Shown here piece by piece: positions 4,739 to 54,300 of a stretch of 64,000 bases of DNA. Both the position numbers and the translations under genes were made by a program. Position 1 is the stretch's first letter. Each line of letters starts with the position of its first letter. Location of the stretch: positions 1 through 64,000 of IMG/VR virus record IMGVR_UViG_3300042367_000196, one strand, 5' to 3'. The notes beneath the pieces are model-generated. The model was not told the DNA's origin and ran no database searches. It worked only from the letters and a program-made list of their open reading frames with translations. The DNA is from a virus.

Positions 4739-5488
4739 TTACAAATAATCTAATACTTGATCTGGATGAACATTTGCTATTAAACAATCAATTGCCTCTT
4801 TTTTAATTTGTGATACAATAACTGCTGCTGTTGGAACATTTAGACCAATATAAGCCGCAATGTCTTTAGCTGAATGTTTATTACAATCAAGACCGTATGA
4901 CATTCTTAGTACATCGTATTGACGCTTGTTTAAATGCTCTTGCATGATTCCTAATAGATAAACGTTAATCAGATCTATATTATATTTTTTAGCTTCATCT
5001 GGAAGCTGAAACGCAAAACTTGATTCTTCTGTTTGATCATCATCATAACTAGTAAACACACTGTTAAAGAATAAAGCAACTTTTGATTCATCATCTGGGT
5101 TACGCCTGATCTCATTTAACTTATGCTCTGGCAATTTAATATCCCCTCGATTAATATCGATGGCTCTACGTATTGCGCCCTTAATTCGTTTACTCAAAAA
5201 GCTTTTCAATGTTTGCTCTATGTTTTCAGAATCGTTTAATTGATTCCAATCTAACCTATCAACTGCTGACACTAAGCCTACTGATCCTTCTTGTATTAAA
5301 TCTGTAATATCTAATACTCCAGAAGCTTGTTGTGATGTTGAAAACTTTCTTGCTAGATTCTCTACAAGAGGAAGAAACTTAATTATAAGTTCGTCTCTAG
5401 TGTATGCACTCCATTCTTTATCATCTGGCATACTTTTTTTGACGTCTTCCTTGTAGGTAATATAATTTTTTACATTATATTTTTTCAT
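4739..5488 (-). CDS. Phage RNA polymerase sigma factor (sigma-70 family)
   Basis: It would redirect host RNA polymerase to phage promoters. It has 249 residues. Region 2 is clear: LVENLARKF, then DLIQEGSVGLVSAVDRLD, the core-binding and -10 region. Region 4 is at the C-terminus: KRQYDVLRMSYGLD followed by SAKDIAAYIGLNVPTAAVIVSQIKKEA, a helix-turn-helix. The linker between them (about 120-175) is acidic and lacks a recognisable region 1.1. Its own leader has a host-like -7 box. It is the obvious candidate for reading the eleven repeated promoter-like elements between 9.1 and 15.8 kb, but that link is inferred. Confidence 0.88.
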   Translation of the reverse strand: MKKYNVKNYITYKEDVKKSMPDDKEWSAYTRDELIIKFLPLVENLARKFSTSQQASGVLDITDLIQEGSVGLVSAVDRLDWNQLNDSENIEQTLKSFLSKRIKGAIRRAIDINRGDIKLPEHKLNEIRRNPDDESKVALFFNSVFTSYDDDQTEESSFAFQLPDEAKKYNIDLINVYLLGIMQEHLNKRQYDVLRMSYGLDCNKHSAKDIAAYIGLNVPTAAVIVSQIKKEAIDCLIANVHPDQVLDYL

Positions 5489-6023: not shown

Positions 6024-6697
6024 AACTCAAATATATTACCATTACTAGTTAGTTTGCCAAACTTACCATCTGTTACTACTGATCCATTACTAAATATAGT
6101 TTGCTTGTCCCCAAATTTTAAAGTTCCTGCATTTATAATATCTTTATTACTATGTATATGTCCAAATAAAGATAATTTTGGTTCTATTTCAAATATTCTA
6201 TTTAATAATGATTTGTCACCACACATTTCCATTAAGTTATCCCTATCATAAGATTTATCAAGAGCTCCTTTTGGTGGGCCATGTGTAACCACAATATCAA
6301 CATAGTCCTCAATAGCTAATCTCCAAAATCTTTCTAATTTTGTTCTATCCTTCATAAATGCCCAATTACCAAATTGTGGTGTATGAGGAGATCCAAAGAT
6401 TTTAATACCATCAATAGTTATATAATCATTCTCTAAGTATATAATACCATTATCTTCAAAATCTTGTTTTGTAACTAATCTTTTTTCAATAGACGTGTCA
6501 TGATTACCTGCTACATAAATTTTGTTTTTAATTGACAGTTCTTTGTACCAATCAATAAATTCTCTAACTTCAGGCTCATTATTATACGGATCTCTAGGAT
6601 TGCTGCAATCTCCAGAATGTATTACTGTATCAATTCCATTAGGAATTTTTAATAAATCATGATATGTATGTGTATCTGATATGTGCCAAATTTTCAT
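6020..6697 (-). CDS. Calcineurin-like metallophosphoesterase
   Basis: It has 225 residues with the full metal-binding series in order: SDTH near the N-terminus, HSGDC, AGNHD, VVTHGPP and FGHIHS. This is the complete MPE active site, so hydrolysis of a phosphoester bond is well supported. The substrate is not evident: it could be a nucleotide, DNA end or signalling nucleotide. It overlaps the helix-turn-helix gene upstream and the membrane protein downstream by 4 nt each. Confidence 0.92.
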   Translation of the reverse strand: MKIWHISDTHTYHDLLKIPNGIDTVIHSGDCSNPRDPYNNEPEVREFIDWYKELSIKNKIYVAGNHDTSIEKRLVTKQDFEDNGIIYLENDYITIDGIKIFGSPHTPQFGNWAFMKDRTKLERFWRLAIEDYVDIVVTHGPPKGALDKSYDRDNLMEMCGDKSLLNRIFEIEPKLSLFGHIHSNKDIINAGTLKFGDKQTIFSNGSVVTDGKFGKLTSNGNIFEL

Positions 6698-7308
6698 AAG
6701 TCTCTATTTAATAATTCTTTTTCTTTTTTAAGATCTGCGCCCATGTTTCTATGTATGGTTCTTGTTGAACAACCTAAACGTTCTGCTAGTTTTGCAATAG
6801 TTATTTTTTCGCCAGCATCGATCGTGTATAGCATTGCATCGTATATCTCTGATTCAGATAATTTCTTTTTGCCAACTATTTGACCGACTATTGATAACTT
6901 CTCATTTACATTTAATCTACAGTTATCTTTGAATATAACCTTACGTAACTTATTTGGAGGCGGTGTATCTAAGTCTTTCATACTAACCTCATAAACAATG
7001 CTATTAATTAAGCCGTAAGGCATATCAAATGTAACAAACCCATTAGTCTTATCAGATATAAATTTAGCTATCTGTAAGAAGCTATCTTGATCTAGCTGAT
7101 GGTTTAAATACCACAACACATATAGATGCCATTTAAGAGACTTATAAGTATTTATTAAAGCTTTACTTCTGAATAAAGAATAACATTCAAATGTACCATT
7201 CTCATAATAATAACCCCAATCATAAATAATAGTAGGTTTATCTGTGATAGGATTGCGATGGTATATTATCCTGTGTTTATGTAAATATTCTATTCTTCTG
7301 TGTGACAT
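6694..7308 (-). CDS. Helix-turn-helix DNA-binding protein, probable regulator
   Basis: It has 204 residues. The C-terminal 45 residues hold a plain helix-turn-helix, GEKITIAKLAERLGCSTRTI, ending in a charged helix. The N-terminal 120 residues are rich in Tyr, Trp and His (IIYDWGYYYENG, LKWHLYVLWYLNHQ) and match nothing I can name. Its start codon is embedded in a promoter-like element found at two other places in the window, which would suit autoregulation. It could also be a replication-origin protein. Confidence 0.72.
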   Translation of the reverse strand: MSHRRIEYLHKHRIIYHRNPITDKPTIIYDWGYYYENGTFECYSLFRSKALINTYKSLKWHLYVLWYLNHQLDQDSFLQIAKFISDKTNGFVTFDMPYGLINSIVYEVSMKDLDTPPPNKLRKVIFKDNCRLNVNEKLSIVGQIVGKKKLSESEIYDAMLYTIDAGEKITIAKLAERLGCSTRTIHRNMGADLKKEKELLNRDL

Positions 7309-9109: not shown

Positions 9110-9143
9110 GTTACATTATTATTATCGTTTTGCTATCGTATTT
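9110..9143 (-). promoter_or_regulatory. Repeated promoter-like element, copy A
   Basis: Minus strand: AATACGA, 9 nt, GATAATA, then AATGTAAC. It lies 15 nt before the 146-residue protein start and probably drives the small-gene operon down to about 7.4 kb. It is one of eleven copies with the same 9-nt spacer. Confidence 0.72.
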
Positions 9144-9156
9144 GATATGCGTTAGT

Positions 9157-9287
9157 AGTCAGGGCAGGATTCGAACCTGCATTTATACCACCATATAACT
9201 TACTGATTCCACAGACGAGCCACGTGTTACTCTCATTATATGTGCGTTACCACGCCAGAGACATCCCTAGCCTTCCGCCACCTGACT
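9157..9287 (-). tRNA. tRNA-like gene, 131 nt, with an enlarged middle
   Basis: The two ends pair perfectly: AGTCAGG at 9287-9281 with CCTGACT at 9163-9157, followed by A as discriminator and no encoded CCA. Immediately inside is a perfect T arm, GCAGG-TTCGAAT-CCTGC, and before it a TTATA/TATAA hairpin like a long variable arm. The part between is about 45 nt too long for a normal class II tRNA, and I cannot place the D and anticodon arms with confidence. It may be an intron-bearing tRNA, a decayed tRNA or a tRNA mimic. It lies between the GP88-like gene and promoter-like copy A. Confidence 0.55.
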
Positions 9288-9394
9288 TATGTTGATTTGC
9301 AACCCGGTTAAATTCTTTATTTGCAATTCGACTACAACCAAACTTAGCGGAATAAATTTACATAGCCCCAGAAATCAACGTTGTGTTGTTAGAA

Positions 9395-10000
9395 TTAATG
9401 AAATATTAATCCTACTTTGTTAGTGTTGTTAAACCATTTTGTAGCCATAAGATCAACGCTTGATGCGTCAGTATATCCAGCCTCTTGCAATGCAAATGAG
9501 GTAGAGAATATTTTAGTATGTCTATGTTTTAATGGGTTGATCAAACTTTTTTGTTTGCCTGAATCGCTGAAGATTACGTCGTAATTATCTGGCAATGAGG
9601 TGTTTAAAAACATTTCGATCATATTGGTGTAACTGTAAAACCGCACGTTCGGATTGTGTATAGCAATCTCGATCCACTTATCAAGATATGCTTTTGAATA
9701 GTAATCACCGCTATCGTGTACCCGTACGTAATCTGGTTTTTTTGATTGAATCTCAGCATTCATAGCGGATATGAAATCGTCAGTCTTAGTTAGTTCGTAA
9801 CGCTTTTCAAACGCAGGTTTTACGTTGCCCCAAATATATGCGCCTTTCTTAGCATAACAGAATTTAACGCATTCGTCAGCCATAGGGCATGTTAATTTAC
9901 CGCTTGCCGACTTGTATGCGGGAATACCAAAGTTAAATACTCTAAGAGATAAAGCTTTACTAGTCTTTTTTAATTTGCTGTTTTGTGTAAGTAGGTTCAT
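9395..10000 (-). CDS. GP88-like phage protein with a cysteine motif
   Basis: It has 201 residues and resembles the gene product 88 family of phage proteins. Features are an early CPMADECVKFCYAKKG block with three cysteines, KRYELTK, the VRVHDSGDYYSKAYLDKW segment, and FYSYTNMIE further on. The cysteine cluster could hold metal or an iron-sulfur centre, and the barrel-like pattern has been compared with radical-SAM proteins, but the biochemical role is unknown. It forms its own unit behind promoter-like copy B; the tRNA-like gene lies just downstream. Confidence 0.65.
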   Translation of the reverse strand: MNLLTQNSKLKKTSKALSLRVFNFGIPAYKSASGKLTCPMADECVKFCYAKKGAYIWGNVKPAFEKRYELTKTDDFISAMNAEIQSKKPDYVRVHDSGDYYSKAYLDKWIEIAIHNPNVRFYSYTNMIEMFLNTSLPDNYDVIFSDSGKQKSLINPLKHRHTKIFSTSFALQEAGYTDASSVDLMATKWFNNTNKVGLIFH

Positions 10001-10008
10001 ATTATTTT

Positions 10009-10040
10009 GTTTAATTTATTATCAATTTGTTGTCGTATTA
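10009..10040 (-). promoter_or_regulatory. Repeated promoter-like element, copy B (divergent 3' part)
   Basis: Minus strand: AATACGA, 9 nt, GATAATA, then AATTAAAC instead of AATGTAAC. It lies 9 nt before the GP88-like start. It begins ten bases past the stop codon of the upstream 91-residue gene. Confidence 0.65.
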
Positions 10041-10049
10041 ATTATGCGA

Positions 10050-10325
10050 CTATTGCACATTAAGTGTAACTCCGTATGCTTTAACTTTTAGTAGGCGATC
10101 GATGTTAATTGTGCGCCAGCCGTCGTCTTTCATTGAGAATACAACAATGTTATTGCGCGATTCTGCATTATACTTTAAGCCGTTACCGTTAACGTACTTG
10201 CGCACGCCAAGTCTCGCGACCATTTTACGTTCTGCACCGTTGTCTTTAATAAATGTTACGCTAAATAACATTCCGTTGTTGCCAACAAATTCTCTAAAAT
10301 CTTGTACTGTTTTAATTGTTTTCAT
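10050..10325 (-). CDS. Small beta-rich protein, possible SH3-like barrel
   Basis: It has 91 residues: MLFSVTFIKDNGAERKMVAR, LGVRKYVNGNGLKYN, NIVVFSMKDDGWRTINIDRLL. The alternating pattern and the G-x-x-R-K-M start resemble small SH3-barrel phage proteins (DUF2693-like) common in Bacteroidetes phages. That assignment is by eye. It is the second gene behind promoter-like copy C. Confidence 0.6.
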   Translation of the reverse strand: MKTIKTVQDFREFVGNNGMLFSVTFIKDNGAERKMVARLGVRKYVNGNGLKYNAESRNNIVVFSMKDDGWRTINIDRLLKVKAYGVTLNVQ

Positions 10326-10336
10326 ATATATAATTT

Positions 10337-10690
10337 TTATTGGTTATCAGGTGTAAAATAATCGTCTAGTTCAGATATAAAGCATCTTTTAAATTCGTGG
10401 TCGTCAAAGGATGTATTCATTTCAAGTGAATAGCTATCGCCGTATGATCCATGCAATTCAGGTTCGCAGCTTATAAATTCATCCCAAGAATACTCGTTTA
10501 ACATTTCTTTTACTGAATTAAGAATGTGATCTTTAGTAAAGCCAGTCGTTGTTACTTCAGGCAAATCAGCGATGCATGATTGCAAGGTTGTTAGCAAGCT
10601 AAGTACATCATCTTTAGAAAAGATACTGCTAGCGGAATTGTTTACTTTTGAAATTTGTACTTCAAATAATGTTTTTTCGTCTTGTGTCAT
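10337..10690 (-). CDS. Small acidic protein, unknown
   Basis: It has 117 residues and is acidic, with a helical first half (KTLFEVQISKV, LLTTLQSCIADL) and a C-terminal half rich in Ser, Asp and aromatic residues (EYSWDEFISCEPELHG, ELDDYFTPDNQ). It is the first gene behind promoter-like copy C. The family is unrecognised. The strong acidity is the kind seen in DNA-mimic or inhibitor proteins, but that is speculation. Confidence 0.6.
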   Translation of the reverse strand: MTQDEKTLFEVQISKVNNSASSIFSKDDVLSLLTTLQSCIADLPEVTTTGFTKDHILNSVKEMLNEYSWDEFISCEPELHGSYGDSYSLEMNTSFDDHEFKRCFISELDDYFTPDNQ

Positions 10691-10707
10691 AATTTTTATT
10701 TTGTTTA

Positions 10708-10742
10708 GTTACATTTATATTATCAATTGGTTGTCGTTTTTT
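10708..10742 (-). promoter_or_regulatory. Repeated promoter-like element, copy C
   Basis: Minus strand: AAAACGA, 9 nt, GATAATA, TAAATGTAAC. It lies 18 nt before the 117-residue protein start, in the gap after the 84-residue gene. Confidence 0.75.
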
Positions 10743-10752
10743 GTATGCAAGA

Positions 10753-11007
10753 TTAATCAAGTAATACCATATATGCTTCAGGGTTAGCTTTACGGAACCA
10801 CGTTAATGCTTTAATCATATCCTTTTGAGCTAAGCCGGTCATTTGGCAACCCATAATAAAGTCGTACATACTTAATTCAGCTGGTGTTAAATCGTATGAT
10901 TCACCGCTAAACGGATTTGTTACAGTTTCGCCATTTGTGTATAGCACGCCGTTAAACCACTTTGGTAACGGTTGTTCATTGGTTTTGTTTTTTCTTAAGT
11001 CTATCAT
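10753..11007 (-). CDS. Conserved small phage protein, unknown
   Basis: It has 84 residues with a well-ordered sequence: PLPKWFNGVLYTNGETV, NPFSGESYDLTPAELSMYDF, then a helical end. The N-P-F-S-G-E-x-Y-x-L-x-x-x-E-x-S-M-Y-D-F pattern is one I associate with a widespread hypothetical family of phage proteins. The function is unknown. It is the last gene of the unit starting at copy D. Confidence 0.65.
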   Translation of the reverse strand: MIDLRKNKTNEQPLPKWFNGVLYTNGETVTNPFSGESYDLTPAELSMYDFIMGCQMTGLAQKDMIKALTWFRKANPEAYMVLLD

Positions 11008-11018
11008 GTTTTTAGGTT

Positions 11019-11231
11019 TTATTGTTCGTCTTTTTCTATTAAATCAAAAATGTATTTCCACACTTCTAATTCTGTTTTTGTACCGTCAAGTACGTTTTTA
11101 ATTTCTTCAATAGATACTCCGCCAGTGCGACCACATTTAACGTCGTCAGCTAATGCTCTAATATCCATCTTTATTGTTACTACTTTTGCAAACGCTTTTT
11201 GCATCGCTCTCTCTTGTATGTCTCTATTCAT
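11019..11231 (-). CDS. Small helical protein, unknown
   Basis: It has 70 residues and is amphipathic helical (QERAMQKAFAKVVTIKMD, EEIKNVLDGTKTELEVWKYIF). Its start overlaps the stop of the 32-residue membrane peptide gene (ATGA-type), indicating coupled translation. No family is recognised. Confidence 0.6.
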   Translation of the reverse strand: MNRDIQERAMQKAFAKVVTIKMDIRALADDVKCGRTGGVSIEEIKNVLDGTKTELEVWKYIFDLIEKDEQ

Positions 11232-11326
11232 AATTTTTTATTTCTCCAAAGGTTTAGTATATAAAATAACATACCGACAGCCGTTACAATTACTAATGCA
11301 ACTAGGTTTGATATTAATTTATTCAT
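11228..11326 (-). CDS. 32-residue single-span membrane peptide
   Basis: MNKLISNLVALVIVTAVGML opens a 32-residue peptide with one clear transmembrane helix (about 5-24) and a basic end (LWRNKKL). Its start overlaps the upstream gene and its stop overlaps the downstream start, exactly the packing of real genes here. The role is unknown. Confidence 0.55.
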   Translation of the reverse strand: MNKLISNLVALVIVTAVGMLFYILNLWRNKKL

Positions 11327-11435
11327 TCGCTAACTCTAATATTTTTTCATAGGCATGCGCCATTCTCTCGTGATCGAAGTAATATTTGTTTCGTATTTTA
11401 AACATCCACTCGTCAAATTTTTGTATTTCCGCCAT
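11319..11435 (-). CDS. 38-residue ORF, unknown
   Basis: It encodes MAEIQKFDEWMFKIRNKYYF and a helical end HAYEKILELANE. It fills the gap exactly between the 68-residue gene and the membrane peptide gene, overlapping the latter by 8 nt. Its regular composition and packing argue for a real gene. Confidence 0.55.
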   Translation of the reverse strand: MAEIQKFDEWMFKIRNKYYFDHERMAHAYEKILELANE

Positions 11436-11446
11436 AGTTATATTTT

Positions 11447-11653
11447 TTAGTATAAGTATTCATTTAATAGTTCATAAATTTCGTCTTGGTCGCGCTCACT
11501 TAAGATTGGTAGTATATCAACTTCGTTGTAGTATACCGCATCTATAATAGTATCAGGATATTCTGGTGGGTTATCATAGGTAGCCATTACATAAGTACCA
11601 ACAGTATTGTATTCAACCTCAATTTCTTCGCCTCTGTATTTTAATCGTGCCAT
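11447..11653 (-). CDS. Small acidic protein, unknown
   Basis: It has 68 residues: a beta-type N-terminus (RLKYRGEEIEVEYNTVGTYV) and an acidic end (DILPILSERDQDEIYELLNEY). The ATG comes 12 nt after the previous gene. The family is unrecognised. It is the second gene behind promoter-like copy D. Confidence 0.6.
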   Translation of the reverse strand: MARLKYRGEEIEVEYNTVGTYVMATYDNPPEYPDTIIDAVYYNEVDILPILSERDQDEIYELLNEYLY

Positions 11654-11665
11654 AGTTATATTTGT

Positions 11666-11977
11666 TTAAGATAATAATTCTACTTTTGCTAATAATTCTT
11701 TTGTTGCATTGTCAATCATTTTTTGTTTGATAGTTAATTCTAATCCACCTACAAGACCTTTATTCATGACATACAATTTAGTGTGCTTAAATTCTTTAAC
11801 ACGGTATTCTTGGTTGTATAATTCAAAGCCGTCGGGTATGTGCAAGTACTCACCGCTGTAGTCGCCGTTTTCTTTAAGAAAATCTTTTATTTGATTAGTT
11901 ATTTTGGTTGAAAATTCTCTAATCTTTTGATTTACTTTTTCTTCAATTAATTTGTCTAATTTACCTGTTGTATTCAT
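11666..11977 (-). CDS. Small protein, unknown
   Basis: It has 103 residues. The helical N-terminus resembles a coiled coil (KLDKLIEEKVNQKIREF, TNQIKDFLKENG). A beta-type middle (LHIPDGFELYNQEYRVKEF) and a lysine-rich helix at the end follow. It is the first gene behind promoter-like copy D. No recognisable domain is visible. Confidence 0.62.
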   Translation of the reverse strand: MNTTGKLDKLIEEKVNQKIREFSTKITNQIKDFLKENGDYSGEYLHIPDGFELYNQEYRVKEFKHTKLYVMNKGLVGGLELTIKQKMIDNATKELLAKVELLS

Positions 11978-11993
11978 AGTTATATTTTTATTT

Positions 11994-12027
11994 GTTACAT
12001 TAATATTATCAATTAAGTGTCGTTTTT
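11994..12027 (-). promoter_or_regulatory. Repeated promoter-like element, copy D
   Basis: Minus strand: AAAAACGA, 9 nt, GATAATA, TTAATGTAAC. It lies 17 nt before the 103-residue protein start. Confidence 0.77.
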
Positions 12028-12038
12028 ATTTTGCGACG

Positions 12039-12146
12039 TTATTCTTCGCACATTTCTTCAAATGAACAGTGCTCTAAACAATCCGCACACAACTCGTCAA
12101 ATATGTGATGTCTTGATGCACCACAACAATCGCTATATTCTTCCAT
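12039..12146 (-). CDS. 35-residue cysteine-rich, probable zinc-binding peptide
   Basis: It encodes a 35-residue peptide with DCCGASRHHIFDELCADCLE followed by H-C and a further C. The CC...C-x-x-C-x-x-H-C spacing is that of a small zinc ribbon and is far from random composition, which supports it as a real gene despite its size. It is the last gene of the unit that starts at copy E. The function is unknown. Confidence 0.6.
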   Translation of the reverse strand: MEEYSDCCGASRHHIFDELCADCLEHCSFEEMCEE

Positions 12147-12149
12147 AAT

Positions 12150-12314
12150 TTAATCGTTAAAAAGTTCTAAAATTGCATAACCTAAGTTACGCTCGTCATC
12201 AGTTAATTCTTCGCTGTGTTCGTAAAGCCACTCGTCAAGGCTCGCTGGTGTATAGCAAAATTGATTCATAAACAACCTTGCAATATTGTGTAATTTTTCT
12301 TCGTTAGTTACCAT
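12150..12314 (-). CDS. 54-residue acidic protein, unknown
   Basis: It encodes MVTNEEKLHNIARLF, then TPASLDEWLYEHSEELTDDE and a helical end. It starts 1 nt after the previous stop codon and ends 3 nt before the next start, so it fits the gene string. The family is unrecognised. Confidence 0.6.
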   Translation of the reverse strand: MVTNEEKLHNIARLFMNQFCYTPASLDEWLYEHSEELTDDERNLGYAILELFND

Positions 12315-12315
12315 A

Positions 12316-12489
12316 TTAATCTCTATTTACAATTTCAAAATCTACATCAAAGAAGTCATCACTATCCAACACTAGTTCAGCGTTGTTATAATCGTATCTT
12401 ACAAACTCAAGTGCTTGTTCTTCACTTTGAGCTTCAACCGTTACTATTCTAATAAGTGTTTCGCACACTTCTACATTATATTCTTTCAT
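12316..12489 (-). CDS. DpnD/PcfM-like small protein
   Basis: It has 57 residues from the ATG at 12489. A longer frame exists but would need TTG and an overlap. The sequence MKEYNVEVCETLIRIVTVEA, then SEEQALEFV and LDSDDFFDVDFEIV follows the pattern of the short DpnD-PcfM family: beta strand, E-A-x-S-E-E-x-A helix, acidic end. No biochemical function is known to me for that family. Confidence 0.62.
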   Translation of the reverse strand: MKEYNVEVCETLIRIVTVEAQSEEQALEFVRYDYNNAELVLDSDDFFDVDFEIVNRD

Positions 12490-12496
12490 ATTAATA

Positions 12497-12784
12497 TTAT
12501 TTAGCAAACCAAGTTAATAATTCATTTACAGTTTCAAATACGTAACATTCGGCTCTCATTAAGTTAATTGAGTGAAGTACATAGTCTCTTTTAGTAGCGT
12601 GAGCATAAGCGTTCTCAAGCGATAACGAACCATTATTATTTAATGCAACAAAATTCTCGTCTCTCGTTTTAATAATTATAGCCTTTGTTTTTGCATCCTC
12701 CCACAATATACCTACGTGAGTATTGTTCCACACTTCTTTTATATCGGCCGTACACGGCATGTTTTCGGTTATAACTTTTCTCAT
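12497..12784 (-). CDS. Small protein, unknown
   Basis: It has 95 residues with a mixed pattern: ADIKEVWNNTHVGILWED, KAIIIKTRDENFVALNNNG, then a helical Tyr/Cys-containing end (SINLMRAECYVFETVNELL). It is not recognised. It starts 1 nt after the 64-residue gene, so the two are coupled. Confidence 0.6.
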   Translation of the reverse strand: MRKVITENMPCTADIKEVWNNTHVGILWEDAKTKAIIIKTRDENFVALNNNGSLSLENAYAHATKRDYVLHSINLMRAECYVFETVNELLTWFAK

Positions 12785-12785
12785 A

Positions 12786-12980
12786 TTAATTGTTTTTTAG
12801 TTGGTAAATTATTTCTCCTTGTAAATCTTCGATCACTCGTTGTATATGGTACGATTCACGTGCTTGTTTGTCGTCGCCGATACGTATAGCATCCGCTAAC
12901 ACATCTGTATGTTCTTCAAACAAATGGTCTAAAGCCACTTGAATTATGTTTGCATCTCGTTTAGTTATATTTAAGTACAT
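12786..12980 (-). CDS. Small helical protein, unknown
   Basis: It has 64 residues, helical and acidic: MYLNITKRDANIIQVALDHL, then EEHTDVLADAIRIGDDKQA and RVIEDLQGEIIYQL. The pattern of two to three amphipathic helices suggests a small oligomeric protein. The family is unrecognised. It is in the middle of the unit behind copy E. Confidence 0.6.
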   Translation of the reverse strand: MYLNITKRDANIIQVALDHLFEEHTDVLADAIRIGDDKQARESYHIQRVIEDLQGEIIYQLKNN

Positions 12981-12995
12981 AGCGTTTATATTTTA

Positions 12996-13259
12996 TTAGT
13001 TATTTTCGTAAGCAAAGTGAGCCCAAATTGCTTGATTAATTCGATCAAGTTCGGTAGTACCGTTTAAATAATTTTCAATTGAATTATAGAATTTAGTTAA
13101 ACTTTTATCTATACTATTAAAGTTAGACTCAAAGTATTCTAAGTCGTCACCTTGTATGTAGTTTAACCCTACAATATCACCGTCTTCACGGACAACCAAT
13201 ACAAAACGGTCATCGCTTTCACACCAATAAATTTCTCTACTTTTAACTAGCTTATTCAT
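12996..13259 (-). CDS. Small protein, unknown
   Basis: It has 87 residues. The N-terminal beta-type half (REIYWCESDDRFVLVVRED, GDIVGLNYI) is followed by helices with aromatic residues (LEYFESNFNSIDKSLTKFY) and AIWAHFAYENN at the end. No domain is recognised. It is separated by 1 nt from the 63-residue gene. Confidence 0.6.
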   Translation of the reverse strand: MNKLVKSREIYWCESDDRFVLVVREDGDIVGLNYIQGDDLEYFESNFNSIDKSLTKFYNSIENYLNGTTELDRINQAIWAHFAYENN

Positions 13260-13260
13260 A

Positions 13261-13452
13261 TTACTTTGTTTTATAGGTTAATGATTTTAATTTATCTAAT
13301 GTTTCTTTTTCAATAGAGCGCATATAACCAACCGTCATGATAGGTCGTCGATCGCTACGTTCCGCTTCAACTATATCGTTGCATATTAAGTTAATATAAT
13401 CTTGCAACCCTCGCTCAAGTAAGTGAGCTTCAAATCCGTTAAACTTTTTCAT
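13261..13452 (-). CDS. Small basic protein, unknown
   Basis: It has 63 residues: a helical start (FNGFEAHLLERGLQDYINLI), a basic centre (EAERSDRRPIMTVGYMRSI) and a lysine-rich end. It lies 3 nt from the first gene of the unit. The function is unknown. Confidence 0.6.
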   Translation of the reverse strand: MKKFNGFEAHLLERGLQDYINLICNDIVEAERSDRRPIMTVGYMRSIEKETLDKLKSLTYKTK

Positions 13453-13455
13453 AAA

Positions 13456-13653
13456 TTACTTTTTTTGATTAGTTACTAATTTATACCAATACTCGCCGCC
13501 GTCTTCACTGTTACTCAAGTTAAACCACCCGTACACATCGAAAGATGATGCCGTAATTATATAGGCAATCCATTCAACACCGTTTTGTCTAATAGTTTCG
13601 TTAATAGCTTTGGTTTTGTCTTCTCTACTTAATTCTCTAAAATCTAAATTCAT
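13456..13653 (-). CDS. Small protein, unknown
   Basis: It has 65 residues: LDFRELSREDKTKAINETI, then GVEWIAYIITASSFDVYGWF and an EDGGEYWYKL end. It looks like a helix followed by a small aromatic beta part. It is the first gene behind promoter-like copy E and heads a unit of eight small genes. The family is unrecognised. Confidence 0.6.
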   Translation of the reverse strand: MNLDFRELSREDKTKAINETIRQNGVEWIAYIITASSFDVYGWFNLSNSEDGGEYWYKLVTNQKK

Positions 13654-13673
13654 AGTTATATTTGTTTTAATTT

Positions 13674-13707
13674 GTTACATTTTTATTATCGATTAGGTAT
13701 CGTTTTT
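13674..13707 (-). promoter_or_regulatory. Repeated promoter-like element, copy E
   Basis: Minus strand: AAAAACGA, 9 nt, GATAATA, AAAATGTAAC. It lies 21 nt before the 65-residue protein start. Confidence 0.77.
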
Positions 13708-13805
13708 AGTTTGTTAAAAGTATGCACTTTGTTTACACTAAAATAATTGATTGAATGTGTAGCCCTCTCCTCCTCAACGTCTAATTCTTAACTTTTACGA
13801 AAAGA

Positions 13806-13852
13806 GTGACATTAGCTAGTTAAATATATATAGTAAGGGGCTATTGTCGCAC
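13806..13852 (-). promoter_or_regulatory. Second-class promoter-like element, copy 2 of 3
   Basis: Minus strand: GTGCGACAATAG, 24 nt with an AT-rich core, GCTAATGTCAC. The embedded ATG opens only a 5-codon frame (MSLFS). Any transcript would run through about 100 nt of non-coding sequence containing a purine-rich GAGGAGGAG before reaching copy E. A small RNA or leader peptide is possible. Confidence 0.55.
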
Positions 13853-14025
13853 TATTTATACCTCAATTCTAGTCTTTTCATGATTTTCCCAAACTCCTCA
13901 AGATCCATTGGATTAAGTAATAACTTAGAACCCACTATTCGATGAGTGAATTGTATCTTCTTTGATTTAGTTAATTCTTGGTGGATAAAGGGACTAAAGT
14001 TTTTTTGGATTTTTAATACTATCAT
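13852..14025 (-). CDS. 57-residue basic protein, unknown
   Basis: It encodes MIVLKIQKNFSPFIHQELTK, then RIVGSKLLLNPMDLEEFGKI and RLELRYK. It is basic with a helical end. It is the only gene behind promoter-like copy F, with its ATG 19 nt from the element. Its stop codon lies at the edge of the second-class element. The family is unrecognised. Confidence 0.6.
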   Translation of the reverse strand: MIVLKIQKNFSPFIHQELTKSKKIQFTHRIVGSKLLLNPMDLEEFGKIMKRLELRYK

Positions 14026-14043
14026 TTTACTTTGTTTTTATTT

Positions 14044-14077
14044 GTTACATTTATATTATCAAACTTTAATCGTTTTT
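14044..14077 (-). promoter_or_regulatory. Repeated promoter-like element, copy F
   Basis: Minus strand: AAAAACGA, 9 nt, GATAATA, TAAATGTAAC. On its upstream side the sequence continues into a TATGCTATACGC motif and a GC-richer stretch with no start codons on the minus strand. Confidence 0.77.
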
Positions 14078-14235
14078 GTTATGCTATACGCTACACACCT
14101 AAAAATGCTATACACGAGTTTAGGGTGAGATCCCCCCGAAACTATGGCGTAGGGCGGAGTCCACTCTTTCGACCTTATTTCAGAGCCAGACCCAAAGTAT
14201 TATCAAAAAATACTCGTATTACCTATGTTTGCTAT

Positions 14236-14250
14236 ACACCCTTCGGGTGT
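14236..14250 (-). terminator. Short GC hairpin, possible terminator or processing site
   Basis: ACACCC-TTC-GGGTGT forms a perfect 6-bp stem 16 nt after the stop of the 83-residue membrane protein gene. No T-run follows on the minus strand, so a processing or pausing role is as likely as termination. It lies inside a GC-rich patch with CGAGCGTAGCGAG repeats. Confidence 0.4.
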
Positions 14251-14265
14251 GCTCGCTACGCTCGC

Positions 14266-14517
14266 TTATTCGTTAGGTTCCATTGGACCGATATAAATCG
14301 TATCATTTTCAATAAACTCTAACTTTACAGTTGATCCCATGTTTGGTATCGATTCCTCATCATCATTCCACACAAATACTTGTTGTTTTTGAGTGTTTTC
14401 GAGACGTGTAATCTCATTTTCCATTGCAGTGATCGTAGTCATTCCGATTGTTAGAATAACTCCACCAGCGAAGCTTAAACAAGCTAATATTAGTGCATCA
14501 TTTCTTAGTTCTTTCAT
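14266..14517 (-). CDS. Small single-span membrane protein
   Basis: It has 83 residues. A charged N-terminus is followed by one transmembrane helix (about 8-30, LILACLSFAGGVILTIGMTT), a short coiled-coil stretch (MENEITRLENTQKQ) and a soluble acidic, beta-type C-terminal part (VFVWNDDEESIPNMG). It overlaps the end of the upstream 47-residue gene by 20 nt. The function is unknown. It is the third gene behind copy G. Confidence 0.62.
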   Translation of the reverse strand: MKELRNDALILACLSFAGGVILTIGMTTITAMENEITRLENTQKQQVFVWNDDEESIPNMGSTVKLEFIENDTIYIGPMEPNE

Positions 14518-14641
14518 TGTTTTTTTCGTTTTGAATTTGTTTATGTGTTTTACCTTGTAATCTTTGGTTCATGTAGTCTTCGAATGATGGACTACACTGT
14601 CGGATTAGAGCCGATCTTCTTAGTTGTGAATTACTCCTCAT
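14498..14641 (-). CDS. 47-residue basic ORF, unknown
   Basis: It begins MRSNSQLRRSALIRQ and ends with a lysine/glutamine-rich helix (QGKTHKQIQNEKNN). It starts inside the end of the 35-residue gene and runs into the start of the membrane-protein gene. The continuous gene-to-gene overlap supports it. It is not recognised. Confidence 0.5.
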   Translation of the reverse strand: MRSNSQLRRSALIRQCSPSFEDYMNQRLQGKTHKQIQNEKNNERTKK

Positions 14642-14738
14642 ATTCTTTTTCAATTGTTATTAGTATGTTAATGTATTCGTTTAATTCTACGTCGTCAATA
14701 AGACTTTTGATTTTGTTTAATTTTTCTAGATTTGTCAT
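14631..14738 (-). CDS. 35-residue acidic helical ORF
   Basis: It encodes MTNLEKLNKIKSLIDDVELN and EYINILITIEKEYEE, a single amphipathic helix. It is the first gene behind promoter-like copy G, with its ATG 15 nt from the element. Its length is low but its position matches that of every other first gene. Confidence 0.5.
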   Translation of the reverse strand: MTNLEKLNKIKSLIDDVELNEYINILITIEKEYEE

Positions 14739-14752
14739 TTGTATTTGTTTTA

Positions 14753-14786
14753 GTTACATTTATATTATCGATTGTTGATCGTTTTT
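14753..14786 (-). promoter_or_regulatory. Repeated promoter-like element, copy G
   Basis: Minus strand: AAAAACGA, 9 nt, GATAATA, TAAATGTAAC. It precedes the unit of three small genes ending at 14266. Confidence 0.77.
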
Positions 14787-14806
14787 CTTGTGTGTATAGT
14801 AACGGC

Positions 14807-15160
14807 TTATTCGGCCGTCACTTCCACTTCAAGTTGTTCGATAGTCGCCAAGTGTCTAACATTAGCCGGCATATCGGTTGATTGTGACCAATACTCACGT
14901 TTAATCCAACATGGCATGATACTTAGTTTAGGTAACATCACTTTAAGTACTTCATCATGATTGTAAGTTACTTTTTGATTTTTGTTGTTAACAAAGGTTA
15001 TTGTTTGATTACGACCTAACCAAGATTTTCGGACTACAAAGTTGGCTCTTTGGATAGGTGGATAAATTAGAGCCTTTTGTTCATCACTTAAGTTGGCGAT
15101 GGCCTCAACTAATAATTCTTTGTTTGATTTAACTACTTCAATTGTTTTTTGATTTTTCAT
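14807..15160 (-). CDS. Small protein, unknown
   Basis: It has 117 residues. A helical N-terminus (KSNKELLVEAIANLSDEQKAL) is followed by a basic, Trp-containing middle (VVRKSWLGRNQTITFVNNK), a HDEVLKVMLPKL helix and an acidic tail ending EQLEVEVTAE. It is the only gene behind copy H. The family is unrecognised; the basic centre could bind nucleic acid. Confidence 0.62.
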   Translation of the reverse strand: MKNQKTIEVVKSNKELLVEAIANLSDEQKALIYPPIQRANFVVRKSWLGRNQTITFVNNKNQKVTYNHDEVLKVMLPKLSIMPCWIKREYWSQSTDMPANVRHLATIEQLEVEVTAE

Positions 15161-15196
15161 AATTTTAATTATTTAAGTTATTTATTTATTTAATTT

Positions 15197-15230
15197 GTTA
15201 CATTGTTATTATCAAAGTCTTGTCGTTTTT
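15197..15230 (-). promoter_or_regulatory. Repeated promoter-like element, copy H
   Basis: Minus strand: AAAAACGA, 9 nt, GATAATA, ACAATGTAAC. It lies 37 nt before the 117-residue protein start. Confidence 0.75.
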
Positions 15231-15283
15231 ACTTTGTAAGTTTTTTAAGTTATTTTATTTTTTATATTTATTATTTTTTATTT

Positions 15284-15317
15284 GTTACATTATTATTATC
15301 AAACTCCCGTCGTTTTT
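15284..15317 (-). promoter_or_regulatory. Repeated promoter-like element, copy I (no gene of its own)
   Basis: Minus strand: AAAAACGA, 9 nt, GATAATA, ATAATGTAAC. Only about 50 nt of AT-rich sequence without an open frame separates it from copy H. It may be a tandem second promoter for the same gene, or what is left after loss of a small gene. Confidence 0.72.
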
Positions 15318-15384
15318 GGTATGCTATACGCTTCGCTCGTGCTAGCGCACGGCTCCGCCTGTCAATTCCGCCTAGGCAGAGTAA

Positions 15385-15406
15385 AAGATCCCTGTCACAG
15401 GATCTT
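15385..15406 (-). terminator. Stem-loop terminator after the 63-residue gene
   Basis: AAGATC...GATCTT with an inner CTGT/ACAG pair forms a nearly perfect 10-bp stem with one bulge. On the minus strand it is followed by TTTTA. It lies about 20 nt downstream of the 63-residue gene, where a terminator is expected. Confidence 0.55.
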
Positions 15407-15424
15407 ATTGAGATATGAATTCAG

Positions 15425-15616
15425 TTAATTAAATACTGAATTTCTTATTGATTCTAGTTCAGTCACAAAGAATCCATTATCTATCTCTTCTTCAGTATAT
15501 TCAATATCTTCTGAGAAACTAGAATAACAATATTCTTTCATATATTCTAATAATTCTTCTTTTGATAGATCTTTAAGATTATTAATATAAAGTTCTGTTT
15601 TAATTAAATTCATCAT
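15425..15616 (-). CDS. Small acidic protein, unknown
   Basis: It has 63 residues: LYINNLKDLSKEELLEYMKE, a CYSSFSEDIEYTEEEIDNGF centre and FVTELESIRNSVF. It is acidic and mostly helical. Two adjacent ATG codons allow a start one residue later. It is the single gene behind promoter-like copy J and is followed by a stem-loop terminator. The family is unrecognised. Confidence 0.6.
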   Translation of the reverse strand: MMNLIKTELYINNLKDLSKEELLEYMKEYCYSSFSEDIEYTEEEIDNGFFVTELESIRNSVFN

Positions 15617-15632
15617 AGTTATTTTATTTTAA

Positions 15633-15665
15633 GTTCATTAATATTATCAGTTATATTTCGTTTTT
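15633..15665 (-). promoter_or_regulatory. Repeated promoter-like element, copy J (variant)
   Basis: Minus strand: AAAAACGA, 9 nt, GATAATA, TTAATGAACTTAA. The 3' part ATGAACTT differs from the usual ATGTAAC and is shared with copy K. It overlaps the stop codon of the 45-residue gene. Confidence 0.7.
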
Positions 15666-15788
15666 ATTCTGTAACTTCTTTAATAATATTTTTAATTCTT
15701 CCTCTAAGTTTTCATAACCACTTACTTCATCTATTCTTTTATAGATCAATTCTTTTATTAACCAGATTTCTTTTAATTCTAATTTCAT
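15651..15788 (-). CDS. 45-residue helical protein, unknown
   Basis: It encodes MKLELKEIWLIKELIYKRID, then NLEEELKILLKKLQ and NKNEI: a charged helical hairpin. It is the first minus-strand gene after the divergent region and the only gene behind copy K, with its ATG 15 nt from the element. Its end runs into copy J. The family is unrecognised. Confidence 0.58.
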   Translation of the reverse strand: MKLELKEIWLIKELIYKRIDEVSGYENLEEELKILLKKLQNKNEI

Positions 15789-15802
15789 ATTATATTTTTT
15801 AA

Positions 15803-15835
15803 GTTCATATATATTATCAATCTCTCATCGTTTTT
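15803..15835 (-). promoter_or_regulatory. Repeated promoter-like element, copy K (variant)
   Basis: Minus strand: AAAAACGA, 9 nt, GATAATA, TATATGAACTTAA. It is the outermost leftward copy and precedes the 45-residue gene. On its upstream side comes TATGCTATACACGC and a GC-rich patch, as at copies F and I. Confidence 0.72.
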
Positions 15836-16236
15836 ATTATGCTATACACGCTACGCGTCGCTGCGCTCCGCTCCGCTTGTCGTGTGTTCGTTATGTTATG
15901 CTGTCGTACTATTATTATAATGTGCTGCTCAACGCTGTGTGCTGCGCCGTGTCCTGCTGCTGTCAATGTACTGTGCATGCCAATCTCCAGAAACCTCAAA
16001 CAAATTCACGTGTTGCATCACGCTCATATCCCATAGCTATAACACAAAACCCAAAACCGTTTCAACTAAATTCTAAAAACGGAGGGGGGGTGCCTTTTTA
16101 GATTAGCTTCCCACTTTCAACTTTCGTTTTAAAATGCTATACATAGCCCGTTACTTCTAAATATCTGATGCAATTTTTTTCAATACCCCTTTATATTGTT
16201 ATTTTTGTTATTTTTTGCTAATATTTTGGCTGCCTA

Positions 16237-16282
16237 GTGCGACAATAGGTAGTTATATTATCTAGTAGTAGGCTAACGTCAC
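16237..16282 (+). promoter_or_regulatory. Second-class promoter-like element, copy 3 of 3, facing the late genes
   Basis: Plus strand: GTGCGACAATAG, 23 nt with a TATATTAT core, GCTAACGTCAC. It is the only copy on this strand and lies 58 nt before the first late gene, so it is the best candidate for the main late promoter or its regulator site. Confidence 0.6.
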
Positions 16283-16339
16283 ACTTTTAAGAACTTATCG
16301 ATGTGCGTAATCATACAGGTATGACTAATTTACGATAAA

Positions 16340-51383: not shown

Positions 51384-54300
51384 ATGACTCCATTTTTAAC
51401 GAAACAAGAATTAGAAAAAAAACGCAAAGCAAAAGAATCTCTTTTACCAAAAATTAAAAAAGAGGCTGGAGAAACTGAAAAAGCGTTTTTGGACCGTTTG
51501 TTAAAAAACGCTCCAATTGTTAAAACAATTGAAGTCCCAAGACAAAGAAAGTTTACTGGCGTACCTGAAGTTAGTTTAGGTGGAGTAGTAGAAAAGAAAA
51601 TAAAAAAACAAGAAGAGAAAAAGATATTCCCTAATAAAAAGGTTGTTGAAGAAGAACCTGTAGAGAGAACTATAACCGAAAAAGTGATGCAACCAGGAGA
51701 AGACATAATTCCTGGTTTCAAACATTTTATTACCGATATAATTGATTCTAACGAAGTATACCGAATGCAAGATGATATTTTTGGCTTGGAATACGGTGAA
51801 TCAATTTCAGAAAAAGAAAACTTAGATACATACGAGGAGTTACTTAGTAATGAAGATATAAAAGGTAAATTAAGGAATCGCGCTTTAGCTAACTACAAAG
51901 CACTACATCCAAACCAAAAAATAGATGACTACTTTGTTGATGTAATGGTTAACGATGTAATCGCAAATAAAATTCAAGAAGAACAGGAGACCGAGGCTAA
52001 ATGGAAAAAAGAGTATGCAGACAAAAGCATATTGGCTGGAAAATATGATAATGTATTAAATTTAGGTATAGACACCCATATAAAGCAAGTAAGTCCTGAG
52101 GAACAATTTATAATAAAAGGTCTTGCCGAGGCTCGCAAATTGCAAAAAATTGTAGATAATCCTAATGTTAACCAAGATGAGTACGCTAAGGCTTTTTCTA
52201 AATTAGGAACCTTGGATAAAAATGTAAAAAACGCATTAAAGGAATATGATAGTAAATATTCTTTTCATTTTGACAATGTAACCGGCCGTCGTCTTACCAA
52301 AGAGGAAGTAGATAACAGAATCAAAGCCGGAGAGGGTAATACTATGACTGACCAAGAAAAGCAGATTGCTAAGATGAGGACTGCTCATAAAAATTCGGAT
52401 TTAGAATCATTAGAAAGAGGTTACTTTTCGCATTTATATAAATACAATAATTACATAAGTAAACTAAATAAAACTTATGATTTAAACCCAAGTGATATTG
52501 TACTACGTAATTCATTAGCAACTAAAGGTTATAAGTTTAAACCAGGTACGAATATTTTTACCGGCGTTAAATTAAAAGACCTTATACCTTTTGTAGGTAG
52601 CAGTAAAGGATATGATAAGTCAATAGAAAAAGCTTTTGTTGATGCTGCTCCTCCTGGGAAAGGTACCCAAGTCAGACAGCTTATGGTTCCGTATTTAAAG
52701 GATCTTATTAAAGAAAAGACGCCTTTAATGTTAGAAAGGGAAGCTTATAAGCTATCATACTTAATGAATATCGATCCTAAAAGCATGAGCCAAGGTTATG
52801 GGGAAAGATTTTTAGAAAGTGTTTCCGATGCAACCATCGGAGTAAAGGCAACACGTGATCTTTTCAAAACAAGTTCAAGAACAAAATTAGACCAAATAAA
52901 AGAAGTGTTTAATGATGCAGGTGTTAAACCTACTAAGGAGCAAGAGGATAATTTTAGGAGAGATGATGTAATGAAAATCACAGAAGGGGTTGGAACATTT
53001 TTACCGGAGTTGCCTAAGTTTGCTATTGCAAATGCTATTTCCGGTGGAATATTAGGATCAACTGCTTTTGGGGCTAGAATGGCTGCTTTAGGTAGATCAA
53101 CAAAACTAATGGATAAAATAGTATATAATGGTTTCAATGCTTTAAAAGAAGAGGCTATATTTAAAACTGTTACTGCTGGCGAATCCCAAACTGGTGGAGG
53201 AGCTGGATTTTATTTAGGGGGAAAACTCGTTGGTAAATTAGGTAAATTTTCACCAATAAATTTAACTGGTAGATCAGCCGCATTTAGACCTTTTGTACAA
53301 AAAGTTATTCAACCTGGTGTAGGTATGTCTGTTGGTTCAGAAGGCGCAGCTATTGTCGAATCAATATACAAAGACGTTAAAGATAATAAATCTTTTAAAA
53401 TGTCTATGGAAGACCTTTATGGGAATAGCGATGAGACTACTTCTCGTATGATGGTTAATCTTGCTATAGGTGGATTAATAGGTGCTAAAGATTTAAAGCT
53501 AGCTACTGATTTTAAATCTATAGCCGCAAAAAGGGACATGGTAGATAATCTTAATGTTGAAATAGAGAACCTTGAAGCAGAGAATAATCCAAAGAATAAA
53601 AAAACAATAGAACAAAAAATAAATCTAATGAACTCGCTTAATTTAGAATTAAATTTTGCGGATCAAGCGTTTAATGATTTAGATGTATTAAGCTTAAAAC
53701 AAGAAATTAAAAAAGCTAAAGCAGAAATTGAGTCTGGCAAACTAGACGAAAGACAAAAGTTAGAAGCTGAAAATTTTATAGCAGAAGGCGGAGCAAAGAT
53801 TGACGCTGTAAGAAGAAACCTTATAAGAGACTTTAACGCAAAAGCTAAAGCAGGAGCATTCGGCAAAGATACAAAATTAGTTGTTGTTGATGGTGAAGAG
53901 GCTATGGGTAACGGTAATAAAGCTGAGTTTAAGCCTAACGGAGAGATTTGGGTAAACATAGAGAAATTTAGAAAAGGAGTATTAGGCCATGAAGTAGGAC
54001 ACGCTATGGTAAAAGCTGCTTTTGAAAAAAATAAAGATTTAGCGCAAAAAATGAAAGATGCTATACAACCTGTTGTAGAGAAAGCATTACAAAGTAGAAG
54101 ACAATTAGGAGGTAGTTTAGAAAAAACAATAGACAAATTTTATTCTGAAGCAGAATTAACAGGGTCAAAAAGACCGGAGGAATATATCATGAATGTGGTA
54201 GAATTACTTCAAGAGCCAAGTCTTAGAGACGCAATGCTTAATACTGATATACTGCCCACGTTTAGAAGAGCTCTAGGCGAAATTGGAAATAAAATAGGGT

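Follow-up and report, generated by a model that had tools for sequence, protein, structure and literature searches.

The window analysed here comprises 64,000 bases (positions 1 to 64,000) of the 65,997-bp viral record IMGVR_UViG_3300042367_000196 from IMG/VR, in which replication genes and small genes lie on the minus strand and structural genes on the plus strand, with the divergence near 16.2 kb. Ahead of the small genes, the candidate promoter element AAWACGA-N9-GATAATA has 12 exact matches, which lie on the minus strand only, between 9120 and 15834. Two minus-strand genes are considered together with the element: one encodes a phage sigma factor, and the other a protein with a helix-turn-helix (HTH). 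The features are as follows, with the upstream box, the second box, the spacer and the -10 box given in this order for each copy.

4739..5488, minus strand: phage sigma factor, 249 amino acids, regions 2 to 4, FliA-like; PHROG 351 (1e-17); Pfam Sigma70_r2; predicted local distance difference test (pLDDT) 79
6694..7308, minus strand: 204-amino-acid protein with C-terminal HTH; PF08279 HTH_11, E 9e-6, 25.9 bits (cut-off 25)
9114..9152, minus strand: predicted promoter copy 1; core 9120-9142; ACGCATA, AATACGA, N9, GATAATA; +1 at 9114; profile score 32.5
10011..10049, minus strand: predicted promoter copy 2; core 10017-10039; TCGCATA, AATACGA, N9, GATAATA; +1 at 10011; profile score 29.5
10712..10750, minus strand: predicted promoter copy 3; core 10718-10740; TTGCATA, AAAACGA, N9, GATAATA; +1 at 10712; profile score 38.3
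11998..12036, minus strand: predicted promoter copy 4; core 12004-12026; TCGCAAA, AAAACGA, N9, GATAATA; +1 at 11998; profile score 37.3
13678..13716, minus strand: predicted promoter copy 5; core 13684-13706; TAACAAA, AAAACGA, N9, GATAATA; +1 at 13678; profile score 42.3
14048..14086, minus strand: predicted promoter copy 6; core 14054-14076; TAGCATA, AAAACGA, N9, GATAATA; +1 at 14048; profile score 29.3
14192..14230, minus strand: core-only copy 7; exact core 14198-14220, AATACGA-N9-GATAATA; below profile threshold 5
14757..14795, minus strand: predicted promoter copy 8; core 14763-14785; ACACACA, AAAACGA, N9, GATAATA; +1 at 14757; profile score 36.5
15201..15239, minus strand: predicted promoter copy 9; core 15207-15229; TTACAAA, AAAACGA, N9, GATAATA; +1 at 15201; profile score 34.3
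15288..15326, minus strand: predicted promoter copy 10, tandem with copy 9; core 15294-15316; TAGCATA, AAAACGA, N9, GATAATA; +1 at 15288; profile score 27.0
15636..15674, minus strand: predicted promoter copy 11; core 15642-15664; TTACAGA, AAAACGA, N9, GATAATA; +1 at 15636; profile score 33.8
15806..15844, minus strand: predicted promoter copy 12, most upstream; core 15812-15834; TAGCATA, AAAACGA, N9, GATAATA; +1 at 15806; profile score 24.4

Eleven of these copies had been described in the original prediction, and all eleven were recovered, the spacer being 9 nucleotides in each; the positions given there are the downstream ends of the copies, and the 23-nucleotide cores are therefore listed separately above. 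The remaining one, the core-only copy 7 (14198-14220), had been missed. It shows no flanking conservation, has no open reading frame (ORF) close downstream and scores below the threshold of 5 used for the family profile in the window scan, and judging from its sequence it is a weak or degenerate copy. No exact match to AAWACGA-N9-GATAATA was obtained in 100 dinucleotide shuffles of the window, on the plus strand, or in the rest of the 65,997-bp record. A downstream part, (A)ATG(T)AAC, had also been attributed to all eleven copies; it is found as N3-ATG(T)AAC in ten of them, with the ATGAAC form in the copies at 15812 and 15642, but is absent from that at 10017 (aattAAAC), and the core-only copy at 14198 does not carry it either. 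The distance from the predicted +1 to the first ATG is 11-25 nucleotides in nine copies, 41 for 15207, 85 for 15294 (in tandem with 15207) and 142 for 14198. A further box, located 3 nucleotides before AAWACGA, is degenerate in the window (TNGCATA or TTACAAA-like) and clear in the relatives. Runs of GTATAGCAT and of AGCGTAGCG/AGCGAGC are repeated at 14090-15900 (minus strand), just upstream of several copies, and partly make up this degenerate upstream box.

Using the sigma factor gene at 4739-5488, 76 relatives (48-86% identical) were found, which together with the window gave 77 loci. The search over the genome and related phages that had been proposed earlier showed the motif in the relatives too, and on the sense strand only: the family profile yielded 370 sense matches and 0 antisense matches over the 77 loci, with clearly bimodal scores and almost none of intermediate value. 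The element is repeated up to 17 times per phage ahead of small genes, which are probably early genes. Counted from the predicted start, the consensus is TTACAAA at -38/-32, AATACGA at -28/-22, GATAAT at -12/-7, A at -6, T at -1 and a purine at +1. Thus both of the boxes described in the original prediction are real, but the third one, TTACAAA at -38, had been missed and is visible from the relatives. Each phage can have its own box variants, for example AAAACGA in the window clade and AACACGA, AATACGT, AATACAA or GATATTA elsewhere, and the architecture is unchanged. A scan of viral contigs with AAAACGA-N9-GATAATA alone gave mostly single matches, which are probably due to chance, and this short pattern was replaced by longer patterns and by the search through the sigma gene. 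When bacterial genomes were scanned for the motif, 34 stretches were obtained, mostly with single matches that are probably also due to chance, and the two contigs with multiple copies belong to Flavobacteriaceae and Sphingobacteriales bins.

The spacing of the three boxes is rigid. The gap between AAHACGW and GATAAT is 9 in 293 cases, 8 in 0 and 10 in 1, and the gap between the first and second boxes is 3 in 242 cases and 2 or 4 in 0. The spacing of ordinary sigma-70 promoters can vary by one or two bases, and therefore the readers of the element are probably held as one unit. In addition, both upstream boxes share TAC(A/G)A, and the distance between their conserved C residues is 11 bp, which is one helical turn.

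Several features of the 370 sites suggest that transcription starts at the element. First, position 29, which is 7 nucleotides after GATAAT, is occupied by a purine in every one of the 370 sites; in this sequence signature G accounts for 56% compared with about 5% nearby, and the preceding base (-1) is T in 72%. Second, in 82% of the sites a start codon is found no more than 60 nucleotides from the predicted +1, compared with 21% for random positions. Third, only 22% of the cores are located inside ORFs, compared with 87% of random positions, and this is the reverse of the equal occurrence inside genes that had been named beforehand as evidence against a promoter. Taken from these patterns, a promoter is very probable. 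The conservation of ATGTAAC just downstream of the -10 box in the window clade could instead be read as a sign of a repeated RNA or operator element with no role in initiation, but this is scarcely credible in view of the fixed geometry from the -10 box to the purine, the placement before start codons and the tight tie to the sigma factor described below. The promoter class is real across the family and belongs to a known kind, that of phage sigma or activator promoters, here with an unusual rigid three-box design. In the open literature (subscription papers were not searchable), we found no paper describing this promoter.

The element was compared with the promoters of bacterial sigma factors. 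Promoters of FliA (sigma-28) have the form TAAAGTTT-N11-GCCGATAA, and their -10 element, GCCGATAA, contains GATAA. The core GATAA is found at the same position in the phage element, and the phage sigma factor aligns with FliA (1rp3) over regions 2-4. In contrast, positions -15 to -13 of the phage element are not GCC, so that only GATAA of GCCGATAA is shared, and while FliA promoters have TAAA(GTTT) about 11-15 nucleotides before the -10 extension, the phage element has TTACAAA-N3-AATACGA at a rigid spacing. The earlier remark that the element fits neither sigma-70 spacing nor the Bacteroidetes pattern was borne out, since neither TTGACA-N16-18-TATAAT nor TTTG/TAnnTTTG is present. The upstream box lies near the -33 position used in Bacteroidetes sigma A promoters, but the element has neither the TTTG nor the TAnnTTTG of these promoters and does not match TTTG-N19-TAnnTTTG; exact matches to host-type promoters occur in the window at chance level only. 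In Flavobacterium psychrophilum, the sigma factors are limited to sigma A (TAnnTTTG), sigma 54 and extracytoplasmic function factors (PMC9723704).

The phage sigma factor carries region 2 and region 4. Its profile aligns with FliA 1rp3 over residues 27-239, while the matches to SigA/RpoD cover mainly region 2. When 50,697 annotated phage records were searched with the sigma protein, only weak matches were obtained and none was full-length. The link between the element and this sigma factor, which had been suggested in the original prediction, is strongly supported by co-occurrence in both directions. From sigma to motif, upstream sequence of at least 5 kb is available at 46 sigma loci, and 45 of these carry the motif. 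The exception, L248, looked at first like a sigma locus with no promoters, but the genes ahead of sigma are reversed and a copy is located at the other contig end, so that the contig is taken to be rearranged or chimeric. In the opposite direction, motif scans alone, without using the sigma factor, selected 34 records of at least 50 kb, and 30 of them encode the factor; the other four are 50-53 kb long and have the motif near contig ends. In 33 of these 34 records the copies are on a single strand, which is the sigma strand where a sigma gene was found, and the sole case with copies on both strands (G091) has them near one end. The four sigma-less relatives, namely elemo, Maribacter phage Panino, Cellulophaga phage phi38:1 and MW202828, have no recognisable sigma factor and no profile match to the motif. 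Portal-selected contigs were also considered as a sigma-negative set and rejected, as they are mostly late-module fragments and uninformative for absence. Overall, the association between the promoter and the sigma factor is well supported at the level of sequence, and it is quite likely that the element is read with this sigma factor. In MW202828 (L292/L293), at least 14 copies of a palindrome like GTGTCGT..ACGACAC were observed; this phage has an annotated repressor, and the copies look like an operator set.

Conservation within the sigma factor also bears on how the element could be read. Regions 2.3-2.4 have a mean pairwise identity of 82%, compared with 63% for the whole protein and 58% for region 4.2, and such conservation is expected if this part reads the near-invariant GATAAT. 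In 8 loci the sigma gene starts 0-97 nucleotides after a motif copy, which points to autoregulation of the sigma factor there. In six loci (L221, L224, L228, L229, L231 and L232), the predicted start is 0-2 nucleotides before the sigma start codon, and the sigma mRNA may be leaderless in these phages. In one record (G076, 55767-56520, minus strand), the sigma gene is broken by stops or a frameshift, which may be an assembly error or decay, yet the record has 10 promoter copies.

Reading of the element by a phage RNA polymerase, either virion-carried and crAss-like or single-subunit, was also weighed. AATACGA recalls the T7 promoter TAATACGACTCACTATAG, a resemblance that was considered and then dropped. 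The last structural gene of the window (51384-59717, plus strand) encodes a giant protein of 2777 amino acids (3694 in the elemovirus counterpart), and its position is that in which crAss-like phages have large virion proteins, among them their RNA polymerase. However, this protein has no D.D.D motif and no family match, and the cellular-type polymerase domain RNA_pol_Rpb1_1 was not matched in 6 family records although the controls worked. A single-subunit polymerase was not matched either, in a search whose positive control also gave no match. Moreover, the +1 at 12 nucleotides from the start of GATAAT corresponds to the -10 geometry of a sigma factor. A phage polymerase is very improbable as the reader.

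The second gene, at 6694-7308, accompanies the sigma gene in the family. It was found in 70 of the 76 sigma loci, and the other six are truncated at 1.25 kb or less upstream of the sigma gene; it was also found in 29 of the 34 motif-selected records and is absent from the sigma-less relatives. A protein of elemo matches the HTH profile (E 1.7e-5) over residues 51-114, which lie outside the HTH, and it was not counted as the same gene. Normally the HTH gene is located directly upstream of the sigma gene, with overlapping or abutting stop and start codons in most relatives, while the window has three genes lying between them. The recognition helix residues R183, T184 and R187 are invariant. The AlphaFold model of the protein has a pLDDT of 89 and a predicted template modelling score of 0.78, and a fold search of the PDB with the whole protein gave no significant neighbours. 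The protein matches HTH_11 only, with no receiver domain and no OmpR-type winged helix. Because the element travels with the sigma factor and, with one exception, with this neighbouring DNA-binding protein, the three probably form a private phage transcription system.

How the two proteins could share the element can be proposed as follows. The host core RNA polymerase with the phage FliA-like sigma factor (4739-5488) would recognise GATAAT (-12 to -7) through region 2, and RNA would start at the purine 7 nucleotides downstream, giving short A-rich leaders before about ten small-gene units. The boxes (T)TACAAA (-38/-32) and AATACGA (-28/-22) would most likely be the docking site of the HTH protein (6694-7308), which, with the nearer box locked 9 bp from the -10 box, would act as a class II activator by contacting the sigma factor or the polymerase, and would either replace sigma region 4 at the -35 position or work together with it. 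The time of action would probably be early to middle in infection. This division, with the sigma factor reading the -10 box and the HTH protein the upstream boxes, is what we infer from the sequences, and we hold the whole model including the HTH partner to be the more probable account, with moderate confidence. The original prediction was right about a promoter-like element and is strongly supported in its link to the sigma factor, but it did not recognise the HTH partner. The binding site of another regulator overlapping a promoter, which it had offered as an alternative, is not a true alternative: most likely both are combined, with the sigma factor on GATAAT and the HTH protein on -38/-32 and -28/-22.

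Several points weigh against this model. In the window, about 3.6 kb separate the last copy from the sigma gene that lies downstream of it, so that the model does not account for the first expression of the sigma factor. No convincing residue-to-base covariation beyond clade structure was found between the motif variants and columns of the sigma factor or HTH protein, and at p = 0.06 in a permutation test, the two upstream boxes are at most suggestive of a direct repeat. One record, G090, has a full sigma gene and good window-like AAAACGA promoters, but in its 57,963 bp an HTH gene could not be recognised; this contig breaks inside the early region, and the HTH gene might sit in the missing part. 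Furthermore, region 4 of the sigma factor could read the upstream box alone.

In an alternative account, the sigma factor with the host core alone reads all three boxes, with region 4 on the -38/-32 box (the long-spacer geometry of the Bacteroidetes polymerase) and a spacer contact on AATACGA, and the HTH protein does something else. The tight co-occurrence of motif and sigma factor, the possession of region 4 and the case of G090 are all in agreement with it. However, AATACGA at -28/-22 would fall in the spacer, a stretch with which factors of the sigma-70 family make no strong contacts at the bases, and while the upstream boxes hardly vary, the helix of region 4.2 is one of the more variable segments of the sigma factor. 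The HTH protein is thus the better candidate for the reader of these boxes, and the sigma factor alone seems an unlikely but not negligible explanation.

A third arrangement would assign the promoter to the host. In the style of T4 MotA, the HTH protein or another phage activator would recruit the host primary sigma factor to a weak -10 box, and the phage sigma factor would serve late genes. The position and spacing of the boxes resemble those of activator-dependent phage middle promoters; the T4 MotA box is centred at -30 and lies 12 +/- 1 bp from the -10 box (PMC2988021). In contrast, the element has no TAnnTTTG of the flavobacterial primary sigma factor (PMC9723704), GATAAT is FliA-like as is the phage sigma factor, and in 80 relatives the gap that follows the capsid gene contained terminators and a TTATATTATATCATG leader, but no clear promoter and no obvious late promoter motif for this sigma factor. 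We consider recruitment of the host sigma factor improbable. A repeated element of 40-60 nucleotides with inverted-repeat ends, GCGACAATAG...TATATTA...TAGTAGTAGGCTA.CGTCAC, was noticed in the window at about 16240-16290 (plus strand, in the divergent region) and about 13790-13860 (minus strand), and after the capsid gene in L410, L413, L414 and L416; it is a possible late promoter or operator.

The favoured model, in which the sigma factor and HTH protein share the three boxes, can be set beside other phage and bacterial systems. In T4 middle promoters (MotA/AsiA), a phage activator box likewise stands beside the -10 box and replaces the -35 box, but the MotA box is one 9-bp site and the -10 box is that of host sigma-70, whereas here there are two boxes, a spacing of exactly 9 and a phage sigma factor. 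In SPO1 (gp33/gp34), a phage sigma-like protein depends on a second phage protein; the late promoters there have CGTTAGA-N17/18-GATATT with normal spacing and no third box, and the host is a firmicute. In class II promoters of PhoB, the pho box consists of two 11-nucleotide units (PMC4415409) immediately ahead of the -10 box. An arrangement of this sort, with both boxes on one face of the DNA and their end 9 bp from the -10 box, is typical of such activators, and it is close to that of T4 MotA; however, the phage boxes are only partly alike (the p value of 0.06 given above), and the HTH protein is not of the OmpR/PhoB family. In its strongest form, one small phage operon would encode a two-protein promoter-recognition system, in which a FliA-like sigma factor and an unrelated HTH partner act as a rigid unit on a 32-bp three-box promoter with no spacing tolerance, and the early genes would be fully separated from the host sigma A code. 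We put this forward tentatively, as a possibility that falls a little short of even chances.

The element can be useful in several ways. It names its likely readers and allows the start sites of hundreds of phage genes to be predicted at single-base resolution, and it can serve as a means of delimiting early genes in uncultured phages. The compact set of sigma factor, partner and promoter is likely orthogonal to the host promoter code. In addition, the takeover of an unusual polymerase by phages of Bacteroidetes would become a question that can be tested directly.

With regard to its origin, the window encodes a portal protein (PHROG 6547), GroEL, ribonucleotide reductase, a primase-helicase, Erf and an exonuclease, and a muzzle-like protein matches the C-terminal domain of the crassvirus muzzle. 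The portal is 42-52% identical to those of the Flavobacterium elemoviruses, Maribacter phage Panino and MW202828, and 37% identical (partial) to that of phi38:1. By these portal identities, the phage is placed as a podovirus-like relative of the Pervagoviridae and the elemoviruses, and its host is most probably a marine flavobacterium. The group bearing the promoter is a large uncultured family of marine phages, with hosts probably in Bacteroidetes, and it is abundant in public viromes, with at least about 600 relatives by the portal scan and at least about 600 by the capsid scan. Directly upstream of promoter copy 1, a tRNA-like gene with a long internal insert (9156-9287, minus strand), which was not called by ARAGORN, matches the Rfam tRNA family with 32.1 bits.

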